DNA from: Baffinella frigidus
Lineage: Eukaryota; Cryptophyceae; Cryptomonadales; Baffinellaceae
Direction of reading: 5' to 3'
Length of the DNA stretch: 20,840 bases
NCBI GenBank assembly: GCA_026770585.1
Contig: MU646379.1
Coordinates: 440,538-461,377, forward strand
In this document: in pieces, positions 11,420 through 20,840 of the stretch
Numbering within the stretch: the first letter of the stretch is position 1
Layout of the letters: the number at the start of each line of letters is the position of its first letter
Made by a program: the position numbers and the translations under genes
The notes under the pieces: generated by a model
Database searches by the model: none
The model's input: only the letters and a program-made list of their open reading frames with translations
What the model was told of the DNA's origin: nothing

Positions 11420-11687
11420 TTCGGAGTTCCCGAATCAACGAAATTTACTACACAATTGGCCAAATCCAGTCACTTCCGGGGTGAAGATCCTAGTGCTCGC
11501 CCTGAAGCGAGGATGGCGTTTGTCTTGGTGGAAACGCCCTCGAAGAGCGCTGCGCACCGAGACAAAAGTCGAGAGTGGGACGTCTCAAAGCAAAAGTGGA
11601 ACCTCTGTTAACTTAAGAAGTAACAGTGGAGTCCAGCCCCGGACGTGCTAACGTGTAGTAAATGTCGTACATTTGGGGAACTCCGAA
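11420..11687. mobile_element. 268-bp element with ~34-bp inverted ends, family E-related
   Basis: TTCGGAGTTCCCGAATCAAC followed by GAAATTTACTACAC at the left; GTGTAGTAAATGTCGTACAT followed by TTGGGGAACTCCGAA at the right. It lies about 100 bp upstream of the chosen TIR-SAM start and contains an earlier in-frame ATG (11662), a reason not to start the gene there. Confidence 0.65.
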
Positions 11688-11790
11688 AATCAAATGGAAC
11701 CGTTTGGGCCGCGGGGAAAAGGACCTTCGCAGATGCATCCGGTCACATCAATGGGGTCACATCAATCCAACCCCCACAATTTCCGCGAAG

Positions 11791-12165
11791 ATGAGCGAGG
11801 ACCCCGCAGCAGGAGCAAACGATCCCGGCTGGCTCGAGGGCATCGAGAGCGAACTTGCGGAGCCAGCCCCCCGCAGAACGTCTTCAGTCGAAGTGCGGCA
11901 CCCGGAGGTGTCGGGGGAGACTCCTGAGCTGGACCTGCCCGCGCTGAAGACCTTCTCGCTCCGCGGGATGCTCCTTCACCTCATGCTGAGCTACAGGGTG
12001 GCGACCGAAGGCGTGGGCAAGGGCAACGGGATCGTCAAGGACCTCTACGACGAGCTGCTCCGCCTCTCCGTAGAGGGATCGCCAGAGCTGCATCTGCCGG
12101 GCTCGGCCCTCGGGAAGTTTCCGTACTTCCTGAAGCAGCCGAGCCTGCTGAACCCCGAGAAACAG
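11791..12165 (+). CDS. TIR-SAM exon 1: N-terminus and start of TIR
   Basis: 125 codons from ATG 11791 (MSEDPAAGANDPGW). It is acidic and probably disordered to about residue 55. Then come TFSLRGMLLHLMLSYRVATE (first strand of the TIR fold) and IVKDLYDELL (first helix). Ends EKQ with a GTTCTC donor, phase 0. The following intron starts with a CCCTAAA array 12 bases after the donor. Confidence 0.7.
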
Positions 12166-15100
12166 GTTCTCTGCATTCCTAAACCCTAAACCCTAAACCC
12201 TAAACCCTAAACCCTAAACCCTAAACCCTAACCCTAAACCCTACACCCTGAACCCAAAACCCTTTCCTTGCTTTCCTCACAGCAACACAAGACACCACGG
12301 TTTGCCCTGTGAACTCAACAGCGCAATGACACACGGGGGAAATGTCGGAAGCGGTGTGCTCAAAGCCATTTTGACCATGAAATGCGTCTCGCGCAGGCGG
12401 GGCAGGTGAAAGTGTTCTGGGACAAGAAGTGCTTGCTGGACGCCAAGAGCTGGCTGGAGGGCTTCGTGCTGGGCCTCTCACACTCGATGGTCATTGTGCC
12501 GCTCCTTTCCGCCAACGGTATGCCCCGCCTATCCTCTAGCTCTGCCTCCCACGGTTTGGTCTTGCCAATTTGGCGAGACCGGCAGTCAATCCCCAGGGGG
12601 TTGGTGCAAATCCGTCAACTTTTGGAGTGGAAATGATCGGTCAACCCGAGTCAGGCGGAACTAGATCGTGTTCCTCTTCACCCTCAGTTTAGGGTTGAGG
12701 AGGCTCCCCCAACCACACACCCTAAACCCTATTTATCTTCACCCGAACCCCTAAACCCTAAACCCTATGCCTCTTCAACCTAAACCCTGAGCCTAAACCA
12801 TAAACCCTTTCCCTCGTCACCCTTAACCCTGAATCCTAAAACTTCATCCTACACCCTATACCCTACACCCTGTGAGCTGCGAGAATCCTGAATCCGCATG
12901 TGCCTCCCGAACCATGCGACCCAACGGCAACGACGAAGCAAGAGCATCGAAGGGGTCGGGACGGGCGCAGCGGCTTGATAGTTCACCCTCACCCCTCACC
13001 CCTCACTCCTCGCCCGTAAACCCTAAACCCTAAACCCTAACCCCTCAACCCTCAACCCTAACTCCTAGCCCCTAACCCCTAACCCCTAAACCCTCACCCC
13101 TAACCCCTAACCCCTAACCCCTAACCCCGAAACCCTAAACCCTAATCTCATCTCCATAAAAGTATTAATTAATTGCTTTTTGCGCAACGAAATTTACTGC
13201 ACAAATACTTTACTATTACTTTTATGAGCGAATCGTGTAGTAATTTTCGTTGCCCCAAAGCAATTAATTAATACTTGTATGGAGATTAAATCCCTCAACC
13301 ATGACCTGTACAGGCACGACAGGGTCCATCGGCGGAATGATCGGCCTGAAAGACAACGACTATGTGGACAATGTGCTGCTGGAGCTGATCCTGGCGTTGG
13401 AACTGCTCAACATTGGTCACACTTCCGTGCAGGTCCTCCCCTGCCTGAGAAAACCTGGGCCCGCCACAGAATACATTTAGAGCAGAAGCCCAGTACAAAA
13501 GGGCAATTAAAACACGTTTATGACGAGCCCAGTTTGCGCAGGCAGAGCTCGAGGTCAGCCATTAGTGTGGCGTCTGTGTAGCAGCGTTGGAGGTTGAGAT
13601 ATGTGGCGGGGGGCGACCCGTAGCTCAAGAAGAGCTGAGCGGCCCGAATGTTGTCCATGATGGGATAAGCTTTTTCGTTCGGCAGGCGCTATTTTAATGG
13701 TCAAATTCGCCATCTTAGCCTCGAAAGAGCTGTACCGTAGCAACAGAAACACCCATAAGATAGCCACACGGTTCGATCTGACGAACGAGGGTGCAGGCAA
13801 TCCTCCCTGTGTTGATTGGGGAGTTCGACGGCACCAAGTTCAAGGAGTTCGACTTCAAAATCATCGATCAGCTCCCCGACGTGCCCTCCCAGGTGCCACT
13901 CAAGGCTGAACGCAGGACTAGGTTTAAAACCTGCTTCTTCCTAAAAGTCGCAGTTCTGACGGGGCGGTCACGTGGCCTCCGGAAACTCGGGGGGGGTACG
14001 TGACCAACTTCAGCACAAATTATACAACCAGCTGACAACGACATTTAAAAATAGTCCCTTTTCTGGTCTCGAGTGGTCCACACGAGGTTATTTTATTGCA
14101 CAATTTAAAACCCGGGGTTTAAATTATTTAGTAATTTTCTTGTGTTTGGTCGGATAGCGGCTGGCAAAACCACCCAGTTTGACCATGTACCCTGAACCAG
14201 GCTACCAACGCCCGCGCGGGGTACATCATGAAACAGCTGGGCCTACCGGAGGACGCGATCGAGAGTATGAAGCTTCGCTCTGTCAAGTCCGTCGTCTTTC
14301 GCATCACCCAGATGCAAGGGGTAACCTTTCCTCCCCGCTGGATCCCCGCTAGAGCTCTAGAGTAGAGCACAGAGAGCAGAGCACTCCAACTAGAAACGTA
14401 CACGAAATGAAGAGTACCTGTCACTCCTCGATCTGCCGCACTCGGGTTGCCTGTCAGACTATTCTCAAGTTGACATGCTGGGTGTGCGGTACACATCCGT
14501 CAACGTTGGAGCAGAAAAGAGCCCGGGCTCGCCGAATTGGTGAGCCCAACTAGATTGAAACAGAGCTAGAAAGAGGGACCGGCAAGCACCGGAGTCTCCT
14601 CGACGGAGCTAGGAATCAGCCTAGTTGGGCGGAAGCGTGGTGTGTGTGCTCGTGTGCGGAGGTCTCAGGGAGGTCAAAAGGGTTTTTCTATTCAGTACAT
14701 CGCAATGCTCACATTCGGCTGTCTCACTGTCTGTCCACAGCGCACCAGCGTAGAAGTCACTCTCCTGCATCGTGCCGCGCTTGCATTGCGCCACTCACTG
14801 CTGCAGATTCAGATATTTGCGGGAGTTGAATCCCGCAGATGTGGGGACGTTCACGCCGCGTCAGTCGAATCTCATCCGGACGAGTATTCATGATAACTAC
14901 GCACCGGCAACGAAATTTACTGCACACACGCTTTGATAATTACTAGGATGAGCCATTTGTGGAGCAAATTTCGTTGCCGTGGAGTATTCATCGTAAACAC
15001 TCTCCGCGATTGAATCGCACCACACAGGTGAGCCTCAGCGAATCTGCGTCGCGGGGAGAGGCCGTCACTGCTTCCGCGACGCGCGTTCTCGAGACGGTCA

Positions 15101-16557
15101 GCCTTCCGCCGATCTCATGGGGAAACTCACTTCATTTGAAATTAGAGGGGGCCCAATCGACCTATTTTGTGTAGGCCTTGGGTGCCACATTTCAGGTAAA
15201 CATGTTGTTCCGATTGGAAAGTTGTAGCCCTCGAAATTCTGAGAAACTTTGCCATTGGAACCCCTGGGTGCCACATTTCAGGGAACGAGTTACAAGGGCT
15301 TTACCGTCATTCTGGGGTCCCGAGGCGGGCCCGTCAGGTCCACCGTGGGACGCTCTGGGCTGTAACTTTTGACCCAGAGGGCCGCTTTCACTTTTCTCAA
15401 CGGTTCTGGAATCCCCATGATGCCCTCTTCAAACCCGCTCATAGAATATAGGGCGCCAGAGGCCCGGAAACAAGCCCACCGTTTTAGTCAACTTTTCACG
15501 AACAAGGCGAGTTTTCGACATGCTTCTGTACTCCGCTCGAGATATTTCTTCGAGTGGGTTTGGAGAGGGCGTGATGAGGAATCCAGAACCGTCGAGAAAA
15601 GTGAAACCGGCCCAGGGGTTCAAAAGTTAGAGCACACATGTTTTTGGGATTTTCAGATTCCCATAGGAATGGCTCAAAGGGTTTGGGCCCCCTCTGAAAT
15701 TAAAGCATTTTAAAATTTAAATTTAAACGTTTTACCCTATTGAATCTTTCTTCACGTTTGTTTTAATATTACTAGTAAAGATCGTTCTGTGTAGTAAATT
15801 TTATTGCCGGAATATTTTAAATCAAAACAGCTTTCCCATCAGATCCAACGCGAAACCATGGGATTAACGAGCTGGCGTTGCTTTCGCATTAGGAAGATTC
15901 AACGTTTCGATTTAGATGGGAATACACGCGCTGACGTTGGTTTCACATTAGACCATACGATCGGAGGTGTTTCGGTTTGCTTTCGCCACGCGCGTCCTCG
16001 TGACGGTGGGCGGGCGGTAGTGTCCTGCAACACTTACAGTCTGCACCCGGAGGCGAAAAGGGCTACGTTTCGTGAAAAAATAAACAGTGTCTTCGTGAAA
16101 CGTTGCGTTTTTTTCACAAAAAGCGGCGAAAATTCGTGAAATTGACCGAACTTGTCGAAAAAGAGTCCAAATTTGAATCAAATTTGACGTCCGAAATGAA
16201 GAAACGGATTTAAAAGGACGTAGACCTTTTCGTATCCGGGTGCGGATCATTATTGTCAACGTTTGGAATCGTTTCATCGTTTTCGTGGCCTACAGATGCG
16301 AAAACCTCTTTACAATCTTGCTGATCTTCCGCCCTCTTCTAGGTGGTCAAGGCCATCAAGGACGTGCAGTCAGCGCCGGAGACATTCCAGTTTCAAATTC
16401 CGATGGGCGCCGAGGTGAACACACGCGCCACTAGTTCAAGTTTATTCCAACATGCCTCATGCCTATCCCCACTCGAAGCTAGACCGGGGACTTTGACCAA
16501 AACCGGAACCCGGATTTTTGGACCACCAAGTTGTATCGGACGAGTCTGCCGAGAGGT

Positions 16558-16609
<52 letters not shown>

Positions 16610-19532
16610 GGAGAGAGAGGGCGCGCGCGAGAGAGAGAGGGAGGTATTGAGGGATGGAGAAAGAGGGACTGAGAGAGAGACACTGTATCCCAGCTTGCAC
16701 AGAGTTATTTTACAGAGGGGTCCCACCTGCTTTCCACAGCACCCCAAACCCTACCTGGTTCGCAGGTTCGGACTGGCTGGGGCGTGTCTCGTTCCTCTCA
16801 TGATTTCCGATTCCCACGGGCCTGTCTTTGTCTCGACTATTACCCTGCAGACATGTTTAGGACGTGACAAAGAGAGTCCCTCTACACGAAATCTGGGCGG
16901 TGTAGAACACTTGTAGACCCCATACAACCCCTTGTAGGCAACGCAAGGGGTTCTGATGAGCGTCGTGGGTCCTTTAGGTCCTTCAGGTTTTGATTTCTCC
17001 CAACATAGCCCAACGACACGCCTTTCCGTAGAAAAGATCTGTAGAAGAAGCATTTTTGTTTTCGGATCACATTGATCTCTCCAGTGCAGAGGCTCTTGAA
17101 GAGGACTTGCAGAGTGGTTCTCTTGGGGTGTTTAAGCTGATCCAGAGGACCGCGCTCGCCCACACACCGAACCCAAGCCAGCCTTTATGAGGCTCATGGT
17201 ATCCTATGGTTGGAGCATAAGAGCTCCGAGCATTTATTTAATTTCTAGATATATTTCAATACGTTTTCACATCCGGTTTACACGACAATGGAGCAGGTTC
17301 TGGACTGGCTGGGGCGAGTCTCGCTGCGCTCGTACGGGCCTGTCTTCGCCAGCCACGACCTGCACTCCGTCGGTAACCGCCTTTTCCACGCCTTTTCCGC
17401 ATACCACTCTGTGGGTGGGCTACAAGGGTTTCGTTGACCCCAGATTCTGGGAGATAACGTGACCTTCACTCTGTCGGTGAGCGCGGAGAGGGGTCTATGG
17501 CTTTGGGGGTCTAGGGCTTCTTCGGGTGTAGGGCTTCTTCGGGATTGGCACACCCTACCCCATGACCTCCACTCCGTAGGTCTATCTATAACCTGTTCTG
17601 CCCTCGTTTGATTCTCAGAATCCCCATGTGCAATCTGCAGGGCCCACGCGGTCGGTGAGGACCTTTTCAGCATACCACACGGTGGGCTACACAGGTTTAG
17701 TTGACCCCAGATTCTGGGGGGTAACGTGACCAAATTTGCATTAGAAAAGCCTCAAAGTTAATTGCCTCTGGGCGAGTTGACGTTTGATGGAAGGTCCGTT
17801 CTTCACCGTGTGGATATCGTTCCGCGAAGGAGGTGATGGAACCCATCCCTAAACCCTATGCAGGAAGAGTCAGTCGCCCAGCCGATCAAACTCTAGGGAG
17901 AGTCGATGGAGCTCCAATTTCGACCTGTGCTTTCCACCCCGCTAGAGCTCTAGAGCAGTACACAGGCGCAGAGCACTCCATAGAGAGACGCTAGCCACTT
18001 AGCAGCGACCGAGTTCCTTTCCATCCGGATATCTGGGGGAAATTCCGGTTGGAACCCATAGCAACGGACAAGATTCTAGTACAAATATTTTAGATGGACT
18101 GTATCCGTGAAGCGCCCGGTGGCTGCTAAGTGGCACGGAGAGAGTGTTCTGGTACGGAGAAGAGAAGTGTTCTATTCATAACCCGTCGAGCTGTTCCAGA
18201 GCAGAACCGTATTCTAGAGGGCCTTTTGCCTGAGCTCAGCTCAGGCTGAGGCTCCACTCAGGGAGCATTACCTCTGGGCGTGAGCGCCTCTTCCACACGG
18301 TGTGCATCGTAGATTGGTTTATTTCTTTCTCTCTTCTTTTCTTCTTTATTAACCTCTTATTTTTTTGAGTCTTAAAGTCCCTGTAAACAGGTCCTAGGTC
18401 TATTGGAGAGTGATCAACTTACTAACTACGCACCATTTATTTCCGCGGTAATAATCAGTAATTTCTCGGTACAAACACATCAAATTAACCGAATTTTTGA
18501 CCGGAGTTTCGGTCAAATTTCCTTCGAAGCCCACTGTGTGGTGCTAAGACGTGCGTTTCCACACTCATGCAGGAAGCTTGACGTTGCAGAAGGACGTATT
18601 TAGACGCAACTGTAAAGTTGGGATTGTCAACTTTTGGCAGCGGAGATCGCGAGCCTGGCACACGACGACGAGACCCTCCGAGAGATCTGCAAATCCCACG
18701 ATGAGATGTACCCGAAGCGCAAGAAAGCCTCGATTGGCGATTTCGTAAAGCTCAAAAAGGTCTCTACCGCGCCCGGACCGGGAAGGATGCTAACTTGTAA
18801 AGAGAAAGTCGTTTTAGCGTCGTACTGTCAGCCCGTGACAACATCCGTAGTGGTACAAGTTTTTTAAAAGTCGTTTTACCGGGTCTATCGTGTCCAACGA
18901 GTGTGCCCCCAAATTGCTTTTCACGTGGTTTAACTTGAGAGATTCCCTCCAACGAGAGCTCCATATTCACAATTGTAGGGCTGACTGGCTTACGAGAGAA
19001 ATCGCCGATTTCAGCGATTCTCAAGTTCAAAAGTGAGCATTGCGTAGGACCCTGCCGTAGGAAATCCAGGAACCTAGGAATTTCCTATGGGGGGTGGATA
19101 GATGGCGAAGTCAGTCCAAGAAAATTTGGTGGTTGGCAATTCCGAGAAGCTCGAGAAGGTCTACCCCATTCTCAGTATCTGTGGGCTAACCTACGTGGTG
19201 GGATCGGACTCTTTTTCACTCCAAGGTTGGCGGATTCGCAAATCCTCAACCAGGCTTTGAGCCACTTGAAAACCAAACCCTAAACCCTAAACCCTAAACC
19301 CTCAACCATCAACCCTAAACCCTAAACCCTAAACACTAAACCCTAAACCCTAAACCTGAGGGGGGGATGCTGCTGTCGCTAAACCCTCAACCCCAAACCC
19401 TAAACCCTACAAACTATCCACTGAACCCTATACTCTAAATCCGAGACCGTAATCACTATCCACTGAACCCTAAACCCTAAACCCTCAACCCTAAACCCCA
19501 GACCCTAAACCCTCACCCCTCATCCCTCATCC

Positions 19533-19564
<32 letters not shown>

Positions 19565-19644
19565 ACCCCACACCCTAAACCTTAAACCCTATAACCGCAC
19601 CCCTAAACCCTAAACCCGAAACTCGAAACCCCAATCCTGAAACC

Positions 19645-19725
<81 letters not shown>

Positions 19726-19900
19726 TCCCTCAGCACTCAACCCTGCAACCCTCAAACAGGCAGTGAGCGATCTGAAGGGGTGCCCTGAAGGGATGCTCCT
19801 CTCGCAGCGCCTCGAGACGTTCAGCGACAAGACAGTCAGCTATCGCACCTGCATGTTTTCCGCGTGCGTCCCTCCCGACCACTCGAGGCTACACGTGTGA
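11791..19900 (+). CDS. TIR-SAM domain protein, nine-exon split gene
   Basis: Proposed exons: 11791-12165, 12406-12517, 13314-13432, 13797-13892, 14201-14320, 16343-16414, 17297-17372, 18641-18759, 19760-19900. The phases agree at all eight joins, giving about 409 residues. The TIR domain (residues about 60-235) shows LMLSYRVAT, VFWDKKCL, SWLEGF, VIVPLLS, DNVLLE...LALEL and ILPVLIGEF, in the order of algal TIRs. The SAM domain (about 299-363) shows VLDWLGRVSLRSYGPVF, LAHDDETLREIC and KRKKASIGDFVKLKK. TIR domains are scaffolds or NAD+ glycohydrolases; SAM domains oligomerise. The glutamate in SWLEGF is near the catalytic position but needs alignment. The order is the reverse of SARM1 (ARM-SAM-SAM-TIR). 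No signal peptide or membrane helix is seen. ATG 11791 is preferred over in-frame 11662, which lies in a mobile element. Exons 1-5 are most certain; exon 9 and its stop are least certain. Confidence 0.72.
12180..12265. repeat. Telomere-like CCCTAAA array in TIR-SAM intron 1
   Basis: Uninterrupted CCCTAAA heptamers for most of the stretch, degrading to CCCTACACCCTGAACCC. It is followed by a C/T-rich tract ending CCTCACAG, a strong but apparently unused acceptor: the frame beyond it soon stops. Confidence 0.95.
12406..12517 (+). CDS. TIR-SAM exon 2: central TIR strands
   Basis: 37 codons plus one base, reading VKVFWDKKCLLDAKSWLEGF and VLGLSHSMVIVPLLSAN, then a GTATGC donor at 12518. The acceptor may instead be at 12397, adding AGQ in the same frame. 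This exon alone is diagnostic for the TIR family (FWDKKCL, W..GF..GL..S, VPLLS). Confidence 0.8.
12534..12655. repeat. Family C single arm
   Basis: CTCTAGCTCTGCCTCCCACG, CCAATTTGGCGAGACCGG and GTGCAAATCCGTCAACTTTT in the order of the family C arm. It begins 17 bases after the exon 2 donor. Confidence 0.6.
12680..13147. repeat. Degenerate telomere-like CCCTAAA/CCCCTAA arrays
   Basis: CCCTAAACCCTA and CCCCTAACCCCTAACCCC blocks at 12720-12870 and 12985-13147, separated by about 110 bp of other sequence. All lie in TIR-SAM intron 2. Confidence 0.9.
13150..13286. mobile_element. Nested pair of palindromic elements
   Basis: The outer arms are ATCTCCATAAAAGTATTAAT and the inverse ending ATACTTGTATGGAGAT. 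The inner element (13184-13253) has family E ends, GCAACGAAATTTACTGCACA and GTGTAGTAATTTTCGTTGC. The inner element therefore sits inside the outer palindrome. It ends 27 bases before exon 3. Confidence 0.75.
13314..13432 (+). CDS. TIR-SAM exon 3: TIR helix with DNVLLE
   Basis: Two bases complete the Gly codon from exon 2, then 39 codons including GLKDNDYVDNVLLELILALE. D-x-VDNVLLE-x-x-LALEL is a hallmark of algal TIR domains. Acceptor GTACAG, donor GTCCTC at 13433 (weak), phase 0. Confidence 0.75.
13555..13796. other. Intron 3 of TIR-SAM; no element recognised
   Basis: Unique-looking sequence between exons 3 and 4 with no palindrome or array; ends GAGGGTGCAG. Confidence 0.5.
13797..13892 (+). 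CDS. TIR-SAM exon 4: last TIR strand
   Basis: 32 codons, AILPVLIGEFDGTKFKEF followed by IIDQLPDVPSQ. ILPVLIG and LPDV match the end of algal TIR domains. The GTGCCA donor at 13893 keeps phase 0. An alternative GC donor after 13904 would add VPLK without changing frame. Confidence 0.72.
13985..14160. repeat. Family H/E mixed element in TIR-SAM intron 4
   Basis: GTACGTGACCAACTTCAGCA, ATTTAAAAATAGTCCCTTTT and CTCGAGTGG match the copies at 1160-1275 and 19978-20092. It ends with TTTAGTAATTTTCTTGTG. Confidence 0.55.
14201..14320 (+). CDS. TIR-SAM exon 5: helix after TIR
   Basis: 40 codons, ATNARAGYIMKQLGLPED and then ESMKLRSVKSVVFRITQMQG, donor GTAACC. The SV(K/R)..V..I...QG ending is typical of the segment that follows algal TIR domains. 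Confidence 0.7.
14341..14395. repeat. Direct repeat of 17936-17980
   Basis: CCCCGCTAGAGCTCTAGAG followed by CAGAGCACTCCA occurs at both places, each inside a TIR-SAM intron. Confidence 0.7.
14462..14570. repeat. Family C single arm
   Basis: CAAGTTGACATGCTGGGTGT, ACACATCCGTCAACGTTGGA, GCCCGGGCTCGCCGAATTGG and ACAGAGCTAG, the fullest single copy of this family. Confidence 0.7.
14906..14978. mobile_element. 73-bp family E foldback
   Basis: GGCAACGAAATTTACTGCAC and the inverse ending AAATTTCGTTGCC. GAGTATTCAT occurs on both sides (14882 and 14981) but not immediately adjacent on the left. Confidence 0.7.
15134..15712. repeat. ~580-bp foldback in TIR-SAM intron 5
   Basis: The inner arms are the clearest: GGGCCGCTTTCACTTTTCTC followed by AACGGTTCTGGAAT (about 15379-15412), and the inverse around 15578-15615. 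The outer arms share AGAGGGGGCCCAA (15143) and TTTGGGCCCCCTCTGAAATT (15681). GGGTGCCACATTTCAGG also repeats directly at 15180 and 15269. Confidence 0.65.
15713..16342. other. AT-richer intron sequence, end of TIR-SAM intron 5
   Basis: Holds a family E end (TGTGTAGTAAATTTTATTGC at 15790) and an internal near-repeat GCTGGCGTTGCTTTCGCATT / GCTGACGTTGGTTTCACATT about 60 bp apart. No gene recognised. Confidence 0.5.
16343..16414 (+). CDS. TIR-SAM exon 6: linker between TIR and SAM
   Basis: 24 codons, VVKAIKDVQSAPETFQFQ then IPMGAE, after a CCTCTTCTAG acceptor and before a GTGAAC donor. Phase 0 at both ends, continuous with exon 5 and exon 7. No motif by itself. Confidence 0.55.
16559..16680. repeat. 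GA/GACA microsatellite
   Basis: About 20 GA units, then ACAGACAGACAGAC, GCGCGCGC and more GA-rich sequence. Ser-rich and Arg/Glu-rich frames here come from the repeat. Confidence 0.95.
16766..16855 (+). pseudogene. Frameshifted copy of TIR-SAM exon 7 (SAM)
   Basis: After TGGTTCGCAG the sequence GTTCGGACTGGCTGGGGCG followed by TGTCTCG parallels exon 7 (GTTCTGGACTGGCTGGGGCG) with one base lost in the second codon and an insertion before CGGGCCTGTCTTTG. It could not encode a SAM helix in frame, so it is a decayed duplicate about 530 bp before the good exon. Confidence 0.6.
17137..17217. repeat. ~85-bp direct repeat, copy 2 (copy 1 at 11304-11391)
   Basis: CTGATCCAGAGGACCGCGCT through CAGCCTTTATGAGGCTCATG, nearly identical to the copy upstream of exon 1. 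Confidence 0.8.
17297..17372 (+). CDS. TIR-SAM exon 7: first half of SAM domain
   Basis: 25 codons plus one base, VLDWLGRVSLRSYGPVFASH then DLHSV, donor GTAACC at 17373. V-x-x-WL-x-x-V-x-L-x-x-Y-x-x-x-F is the SAM helix 1-2 signature. The single leftover G pairs with CG at the start of exon 8 to give Ala. Confidence 0.72.
17390..17730. repeat. Intronic direct repeat after exon 7
   Basis: GCATACCAC, GGTGGGCTAC and TTGACCCCAGATTCTGGG occur at 17398-17462 and again at 17670-17730, about 268 bp apart, each ending TAACGTGACC. The copying probably included part of exon 7, since CCACTCCGTAGGT at 17568 resembles its 3' end. Confidence 0.7.
17994..18134. mobile_element. ~141-bp MITE-like element
   Basis: GCCACTTAGCAGC at the left and GCTGCTAAGTGGC at the right, perfect 13-bp inverted ends. 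The interior has no long palindrome, unlike families A and B. Confidence 0.6.
18228..18246. repeat. 19-bp palindrome
   Basis: GCCTGAGCTCAGCTCAGGC, self-complementary around its centre. Confidence 0.7.
18247..18640. other. Rest of TIR-SAM intron 7; no element recognised
   Basis: T-rich around 18320-18370, otherwise unremarkable; ends CTTTTGGCAG. Confidence 0.5.
18641..18759 (+). CDS. TIR-SAM exon 8: second half of SAM domain
   Basis: CG completes Ala, then 39 codons reading EIASLAHDDETLREICKSHD and EMYPKRKKASIGDFVKLKK. L-x-x-D-D-E-x-L plus a basic (P)-K-R-K-K-x-x-I-x-x-x-x-x-L-K end match SAM helices 3-5. The donor is GTCTCT (weak). Acceptor GGCAG fits phase 1; a downstream AG at 18646 would fit phase 0 if exon 7 were skipped. 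Confidence 0.7.
18760..19262. other. TIR-SAM intron 8, left part; partial family C sequence
   Basis: Contains TTTTTCACTCCAAGGTTGGC followed by GGATTCGCAAATCC, a decayed family C arm at about 19205-19242. Otherwise no recognised feature. Confidence 0.45.
19263..19756. repeat. Large degenerate CCCTAAA / CCCTCAA array before the last exon
   Basis: Nearly 500 bases of CCCTAAA heptamers that shift to CCCTCAA (about 14 near-perfect units at 19644-19725). The array runs directly into CCCTCAAACAG, the acceptor of exon 9, so its C/T content would serve as the polypyrimidine tract. Confidence 0.95.
19760..19900 (+). CDS. TIR-SAM exon 9: candidate C-terminal exon
   Basis: 46 codons and a TGA, AVSDLKGCPEGMLLSQRLET then FSDKTVS. 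Phase 0, continuous with KLKK of exon 8. The last 18 codons (from CTATCGCACCTGCATGTT) are repeated in part at 20122-20150, so the true end may be earlier, with a GTCAGC donor and further exons beyond the window. Confidence 0.45.
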   Translation, partial: AVSDLKGCPEGMLLSQRLETFSDKTVSYRTCMFSACVPPDHSRLHV

Positions 19901-19948
19901 CTATTTTAAAACAGGGATTCGGTTACAAGTGAAGAAAAAAAAAGAGGT

Positions 19949-20092
19949 GTGTAGTAATTTTTACACAAATGGGGGCTTTTGGTCACGTATCGGGCGGAAT
20001 TCCGCCCGATACGTGACCACGCCTGCCCGTGACTGGTACGCAATTTAACAACCCCACATTTAAAATGGTCCCCTTTCTAGCCTCGAGTGGGA
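19949..20092. repeat. Family H/E element with a perfect 38-bp palindrome
   Basis: GTGTAGTAATTTTTACACAA is followed by the palindrome 19981-20018 (GGTCACGTATCGGGCGGAA and its exact inverse). Then come ACAACCCCACATTTAAAAT and CTCGAGTGG, as in the copies at 1160 and 13990. Confidence 0.75.
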
Positions 20093-20179
20093 GGACGCTG
20101 GAATCCTAGCGAAATGCAGGTGCTATCGCACCTGCATGTTCTCCGCCCTCCCTCCCGACGCTGGAGGCGCTGTCCCATT

Positions 20180-20357
20180 ATAGAGCGCTGTGCAGAGAGA
20201 AGTTGGCCACCGAAAAATGGGAATATGGGAAATTGGAGCCATTTTGTCCACTTTTGAGAATTTCATGGTACTAAATTTCTCAAAAGTTGACAAAATGGCT
20301 CCAATTTTTCGATTTTCCATTATTTCCCGTGGCCAACTTCTCTGTGCAGCGCTCTAT
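20180..20357. repeat. 178-bp foldback with ~75-bp arms
   Basis: ATAGAGCGCTGTGCAGAGAG followed by AAGTTGGCCAC at the left is the inverse of GTGGCCAACTTCTCTGTGCA followed by GCGCTCTAT at the right. The inner arms include GGAGCCATTTTGTCCACTTT. The two antiparallel open frames over it are by-products. Confidence 0.85.
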
Positions 20358-20459
20358 TTTGCCTCACCAATCTCTCAGTCTATTTTTCCTCACCGATTTC
20401 CGCGTGCGTCTCCCCTCCACGCCATTCCTGCCCACCCGGCCCCACCGGCGGGTTTGGAG

Positions 20460-20560
20460 TTCAGGGTTTGGGGTCTAGGGCTTAGGGTTTAGGGTTTAGG
20501 GTTTAGGGTTGAGAGTTTAGGGTTTAGGGTTTAGGGTTTGGGGTTTGGGGTTTCGGGTTT
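20460..20560. repeat. TTTAGGG array (inverted orientation)
   Basis: GGGTTTAGGGTTTAGGG units, opposite in orientation to the arrays at 19263 and 20700, so telomere-like arrays meet head to head here. Confidence 0.9.
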
Positions 20561-20593
20561 CCGCGTGAGTCCCCCCCGACACTGGAATCCTAG

Positions 20594-20697
20594 CTCTTTG
20601 AATCTATTTTGGCGCACCAGTTTGGTGAGACCAGGCTCGTTTCCGCTCTAAAGTTGACGGATCTGTACGACACGTACACCCAGCATGTCAACTTAAC
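20594..20697. repeat. Family C single arm, inverted
   Basis: CTCTAAAGTTGACGGATCTG and CCCAGCATGTCAACTTAA, the inverse of the arm at 14462-14570. Confidence 0.7.
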
Positions 20698-20699
20698 CA

Positions 20700-20840
20700 T
20701 AAACTCTGGACCCTAACCCCTAAGCTCTAGACCCCAAGCCCTAAACCCTGAACCCTAAACCCTAAACCCTAAACCCTAAACCCTAAACCCTAAACCCTAA
20801 ACCCTAAACCCTAAACCCTAAACTCTAAACCCTAAACCCT
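20700..20840. repeat. Telomere-like CCCTAAA array at the right edge
   Basis: About 13 CCCTAAA units from about 20738, running off the window. At a right-hand chromosome end the plus strand would read TTTAGGG, so this is interstitial or the window edge is not a telomere. Confidence 0.95.

Follow-up and report, generated by a model that had tools for sequence, protein, structure and literature searches.

Does the stretch of 20,840 nucleotides analysed here (the window; C77:440538-461377, to which all window positions refer) carry a genuine gene that joins a TIR to a SAM domain, and what would its product do? The gene is nuclear and comes from the cryptophyte Baffinella frigidus (Cryptophyceae), an arctic alga, whose genome was searched as an assembly of 382 Mb in 1364 contigs (G000). 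We read the locus as a ten-exon gene for a TIR-linker-SAM protein, in which SAM-driven clustering would let the TIR domain cleave nicotinamide adenine dinucleotide (NAD+) through Glu189, and which would represent a branch of a family of four-part proteins; we put the probability of this reading at roughly one half.

A sequence-only reading had assembled nine open segments in compatible phases. They carry AG acceptors at exons 2-9 and GT donors at exons 1-8 and do join, in phases 0/0/1/0/0/0/0/1/0, into a single frame, which has 412 residues. The closest database match of the spliced protein is the unnamed B. frigidus protein T484DRAFT_1778889 (435 residues), and with one further phase-0 exon of 69 nucleotides at 15028-15096 the splice becomes identical to it letter for letter. 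Since an exon of 69 nucleotides in the same phase and with a GT donor is kept at this place in all three paralogs compared (on contigs C496, C341 and C273; 61-65% identity) and the relative P0003 contains a sequence matching it, exon 6 is no annotation accident. The window gene is thus confirmed as a real gene of ten exons: all nine segments are present, a tenth had been overlooked, and the last one likely ends earlier, at 19863. The ratio of nonsynonymous to synonymous substitution rates (dN/dS) is 0.22 against C496 (dS 0.88; 220 codons, taken from exons 2 and 4-9), 0.24 against C341 (111 codons) and 0.35 against C273 (72 codons); exon 3 was poorly recovered in C496 and in several paralogs. 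Because exon borders and phases recur in the paralogs at such dN/dS values, the gene is more than a product of chance, and to judge from its substitutions it has been kept as a protein.

All exons lie on the forward strand. Exon 1 (11791..12165) supplies the start ATG, an N-terminal extension and TIR strand A with helix A (LSYRVATE), as placed by the splice and by a TIR profile; this profile, which itself includes the window protein, matches in the open frame 11662-12186 that covers the exon. Exon 2 (12397..12517), found in the splice, in the TIR profile search and as an exon of C496, runs from strand B to strand C (VFWDKKCL, SWLEGF, VIVPLLS). Exon 3 (13314..13432; splice and alignments) holds helix C with the putative catalytic Glu189 in DNVLLE, exon 4 (13797..13892) strand D (ILPVLIG) and exon 5 (14201..14320) the C-terminal helices of the TIR domain, the latter two drawn from the splice and the paralogs. 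Exon 6, known from the database protein and the paralogs, encodes a helical linker, VSLSESASRGEAVTASATRVLET, which exon 7 (16343..16414) continues up to the SAM domain. The first SAM helices (VLDWLGRVSLRSYGPVFASHDLHSV) are encoded by exon 8 (17297..17372), where SAM_2 also matches below its cut-off, and the remainder of the domain (DDETLREIC, KRKKASIGDF) by exon 9 (18641..18759); exons 7, 8 and 9 are again drawn from the splice and the paralogs.

Taking alignments and models together, the TIR domain is real and the SAM domain probably so, even though Pfam misses the former and scores the latter below its cut-off in the window protein. Support comes from relatives that exceed the cut-offs (for TIR, set at 28 bits, P0007 reaches 36.9 and P0008 47.3; for Pfam SAM, P0028 reaches 25.0), from an AlphaFold model of a relative that adopts a TIR fold about equally close to plant and to SARM1 TIRs, and from the neighbours of this model, which include NAD+-processing plant and SARM1 TIRs. 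Furthermore, SAM_2 was found at E ≤ 0.05 in 16 of the 48 family members, and the A4 profile recovered weak SAM chains from the PDB (best E 0.051). The model of the relative has five helices in residues 355-434, with no SAM chain among the 50 structural matches listed. A PDB search with the single sequence returned nothing relevant for TIR or SAM, and a model of P0003 built from 3 sequences was set aside at a predicted local distance difference test (pLDDT) score of 39.

Several results weigh against our reading of the protein. Pfam TIR gives no match in it even at E 10, and SAM_2 covers residues 324-359 at 13.5 bits against a cut-off of 20.5. The closest solved chain by TIR profile, SARM1, is not significant (E 0.065); direct Foldseek gave no match at E ≤ 0.001; and the AlphaFold model is that of a relative, not of the window protein. 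Three relatives, among them the Baffinella paralog P0002, carry Gln in place of the putative catalytic Glu. Finally, no transcript of the window gene was found, its 90% cluster having one member, from ncbi/nr. Domain scores below threshold, which the sequence-only reading had named as telling against itself, are indeed what the window protein gives when taken alone, and they are overridden by the relatives, the profile and the model. The claim of a TIR ahead of a SAM within one spliced algal gene holds, with a spliced frame equal to a database protein and relatives above the Pfam cut-offs. The proposed likeness to SARM1 stands in part: SARM1 is the nearest chain by profile without reaching significance, and by structure plant and SARM1 TIRs come out level.

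The candidate active site was sought by alignment. Three MAFFT modes, applied to eight TIRs, all set the Glu of SARM1 DWVHKE, which we take to be the catalytic Glu of SARM1, against the Glu of DNVLLE, which is Glu189 in the window protein. The Glu of SWLEGF, considered earlier as the possible equivalent, sits one helix upstream and is not the aligned residue. The HMMER alignment to SARM1, the one at E 0.065, shows another register, with SARM1 helix C against the SWLEGF helix. An insert of 25-40 residues separates TIR helix A from strand B. The TIRs that lack it (P0005, P0007 and P0008) show no such displacement when aligned, so we read this register as the effect of the insert, which would push the alignment out by one strand-helix unit. 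Among 52 rows, the column of Glu189 holds 37 Glu, 3 Gln (P0002, P0022 and P0026) and 12 gaps. A TIR acting as a non-enzymatic adaptor that forms only a signalling scaffold with the SAM domain, like most animal TIRs, would suit these Gln residues and the distance of the sequence from characterised TIRs. We consider it unlikely, as Glu occupies 37 of the 40 rows with a residue and NAD+-processing plant and SARM1 TIRs stand among the structural neighbours. Rather, the TIR domain is predicted to be, probably, an NAD+-cleaving enzyme, and SAM-clustered cleavage would be the likeliest mechanism: SAM domains would bring several copies of the protein together, their TIR domains would form stacks and so build the composite active site on which other enzymatic TIRs depend, and Glu189 would cleave NAD+, yielding a nucleotide signal or a loss of NAD+ that could end in a stress, defence or death response. 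A role in immunity or cell death may be inferred by analogy.

It might also be asked whether the gene is a decaying copy that has lost a C-terminal half and is heading to a pseudogene. The lack of a transcript would fit this, as would the suspect C-terminus described below and the partial exon copies nearby: one of exon 8 in the intron preceding it (16766..16799, forward strand; 86% over 35 columns, E 2e-5) and one of the end of exon 10 (20122..20145, forward strand; 96% over 24 bases). Exon duplication is heavy in paralogs as well; those on C341 and C273 (L025-L028, L032-L033) carry tandem partial copies of exons 3, 5, 6, 9 and 10, as if exons had been duplicated locally. With a frame open across ten exons, intact splice sites and dN/dS of 0.22-0.35, decay is nevertheless quite improbable.

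Where does the gene end? T484DRAFT_1778889 reads through to a TGA at 19898-19900. In the paralogs, the codons for CMF(S/T) and a GC are followed by gtgagt (C496), gtacgt (C341) and gtacgt (C273), and the window has gtgcgt at the same place. Because of these shared donors, coding exon 10 (19760..19863, forward strand) most likely ends before GTGCGT with more sequence to follow; in relatives this exon leads to membrane helices. It measures 104 nucleotides in the window, C496 and C341, and 77 in C273, where the acceptor lies later. The residues past CMFS(A), that is the annotated C-terminus with its stop (19864..19900, forward strand), are present in the database record and are probably intron read-through. 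Many metagenome relatives (P0004, P0010, P0011, P0020 and similar) have C-termini of the form GETxx... soon after RLEWFED, which fits a read into an intron starting GTGAGA, roughly where exon 10 of the window gene has its donor. The C-terminus of P0002 (NGVETAMAK repeats) was rejected as a true exon, since it looks like a repeat read as one.

In relatives, TIR-SAM is followed by membrane helices and then by a RelA/SpoT fold of the small alarmone synthetase type. At three loci of the same genome (C757, L029; C777, L030; C283, L031), TIR, SAM, membrane and RelA/SpoT-type parts follow one another in this order along a single strand; the TIR occupies one exon in C757 and C777 against five in the window gene. 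P0052 (MMETSP, assigned to B. frigidus by its taxonomy identifier) likewise runs from TIR-SAM-membrane into the RelA/SpoT part, and it has no near-identical match among the loci of the genome, the best stretches reaching 84-86%. Against a Pfam RelA_SpoT cut-off of 27, the C-terminus of P0017 scores 17.4 bits, and P0035 and P0042 give no match to this family; the AlphaFold model of a relative shows the synthetase fold in its C-terminal part, where its confidence is low. A tree built from 39 sequences joins the window protein with P0002 (bootstrap 100), and next to this clade stands a group with P0035, P0052 and P0017. P0042, which serves as root together with P0043, also bears all four parts. 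Since these four-part proteins sit around the window clade, the TIR-SAM-membrane-RelA/SpoT arrangement is probably the older, ancestral form; the window branch would then either have lost the C-terminal half or have exons for it that profiles do not recognise.

Under the second option, the window gene would be the upstream half of a longer gene encoding a membrane-bound TIR-SAM-alarmone-synthetase, whose membrane and RelA/SpoT-type exons are diverged, tiny or distant. The exon 10 donor kept in three paralogs, the C-terminal half in relatives to either side of the window clade in the tree, the three complete loci and P0052 all favour it. However, membrane and RelA/SpoT profiles, reported up to an independent E-value of 2, found nothing in 39,623 bases downstream except the end of exon 10, although the same profiles do detect the C757, C777 and C283 loci. 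Searches for these parts with tblastn found none in the first 19.6 kilobases, and P0035 as a query gave no RelA/SpoT match on contig C77 among the matches listed. When paralogs were compared downstream for shared exons, 62 repeat-like matches emerged (25 sense, 37 antisense), from which no exon was called. We hold the long gene doubtful. For the family, we tentatively propose, at less than even odds, a cryptophyte membrane protein that couples two nucleotide-signal enzymes across a membrane anchor: an NAD+-cleaving TIR gathered by SAM, and an alarmone synthetase of RelA/SpoT type. The window gene would be a TIR-SAM branch of this family.

Further observations concern the surroundings of the gene and of the family. 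Inverted-repeat elements of 100-280 bases, resembling short DNA transposons, lie in introns or just past exon 10 (13145-13291, 14882-15002, 15356-15636, 19879-20090 and 20213-20324), and the telomere-like unit CCCTAAA forms long arrays in introns (12178-12263, 12986-13145 and 19275-19757) and at the window end (20450-20840). Five other open reading frames of the window contain no Pfam family. A RelA/SpoT-type piece lies on the strand opposite the C341 TIR-SAM gene (L028:74-232; C341:116074-116232), and similar pieces occur on C116, C128, C430, C9 and others, without the remaining parts among the matches listed. The N-terminus of P0017 (residues 1-18) looks like the latter half of an EF hand, at 12.2 bits against a cut-off of 25.4; if real, this would give a TIR-SAM protein a calcium input. 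Two relatives, P0007 and P0005, the latter of the green alga Cymbomonas, have a protein kinase domain ahead of the TIR. Viral contigs yielded no relative of the TIR-SAM or RelA/SpoT part with the patterns tried, and PADLOC assigned no family to P0001, P0003 or P0004.

The locus offers a concrete, testable protein: the alga is in culture, its TIR-SAM gene has paralogs, and both a candidate Glu and the architecture of the family can be named. As a partner for TIR, the RelA/SpoT-type end would be new; in the open-access literature searched, no paper on TIR together with an alarmone synthetase was found, and wider searches turned up no such fusion in a title or abstract. If true, such a two-enzyme membrane protein would couple the breakdown of NAD+ in a eukaryote to a second messenger resembling an alarmone. 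A 2026 preprint counts six eukaryotic TIR clades as uncharacterised and holds that evidence for cell death driven by TIRs is lacking in microeukaryotes (PMC13142454).

How does the protein compare with known systems? SARM1 is an animal NAD+ hydrolase with the layout ARM-SAM-SAM-TIR. As proposed earlier, the order here is reversed, with the TIR before one SAM instead of two, and no ARM repeats were reported, nor any other Pfam family, even at E 10; the insert of 25-40 residues that follows helix A is a further difference. The plant TIR immune receptors RPV1, RUN1 and RPP1 differ in that the window protein has a SAM in place of NB-ARC or LRR. Small alarmone synthetases (Bacillus subtilis SAS1, RelP) and Tas1 are comparable only to the C-terminal part of relatives, which lies below the cut-off of 27 with a low-confidence model and was not found at the window locus. 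The same TIR-SAM order is described for the amphioxus gene model Brafl1_131196, which is named as combining TIR with SAM and is backed by transcripts (PMC2575513); it belongs to an animal and is likened here by that description, not by sequence. Artificial plant TIR-SAM fusions, built to force activity according to the extract cited, also share the order of the window gene (PMC10242710). The pairing of TIR and SAM is already known, and the TIR-SAM order in a cryptophyte, joined by a helical linker, is a new variant of it.
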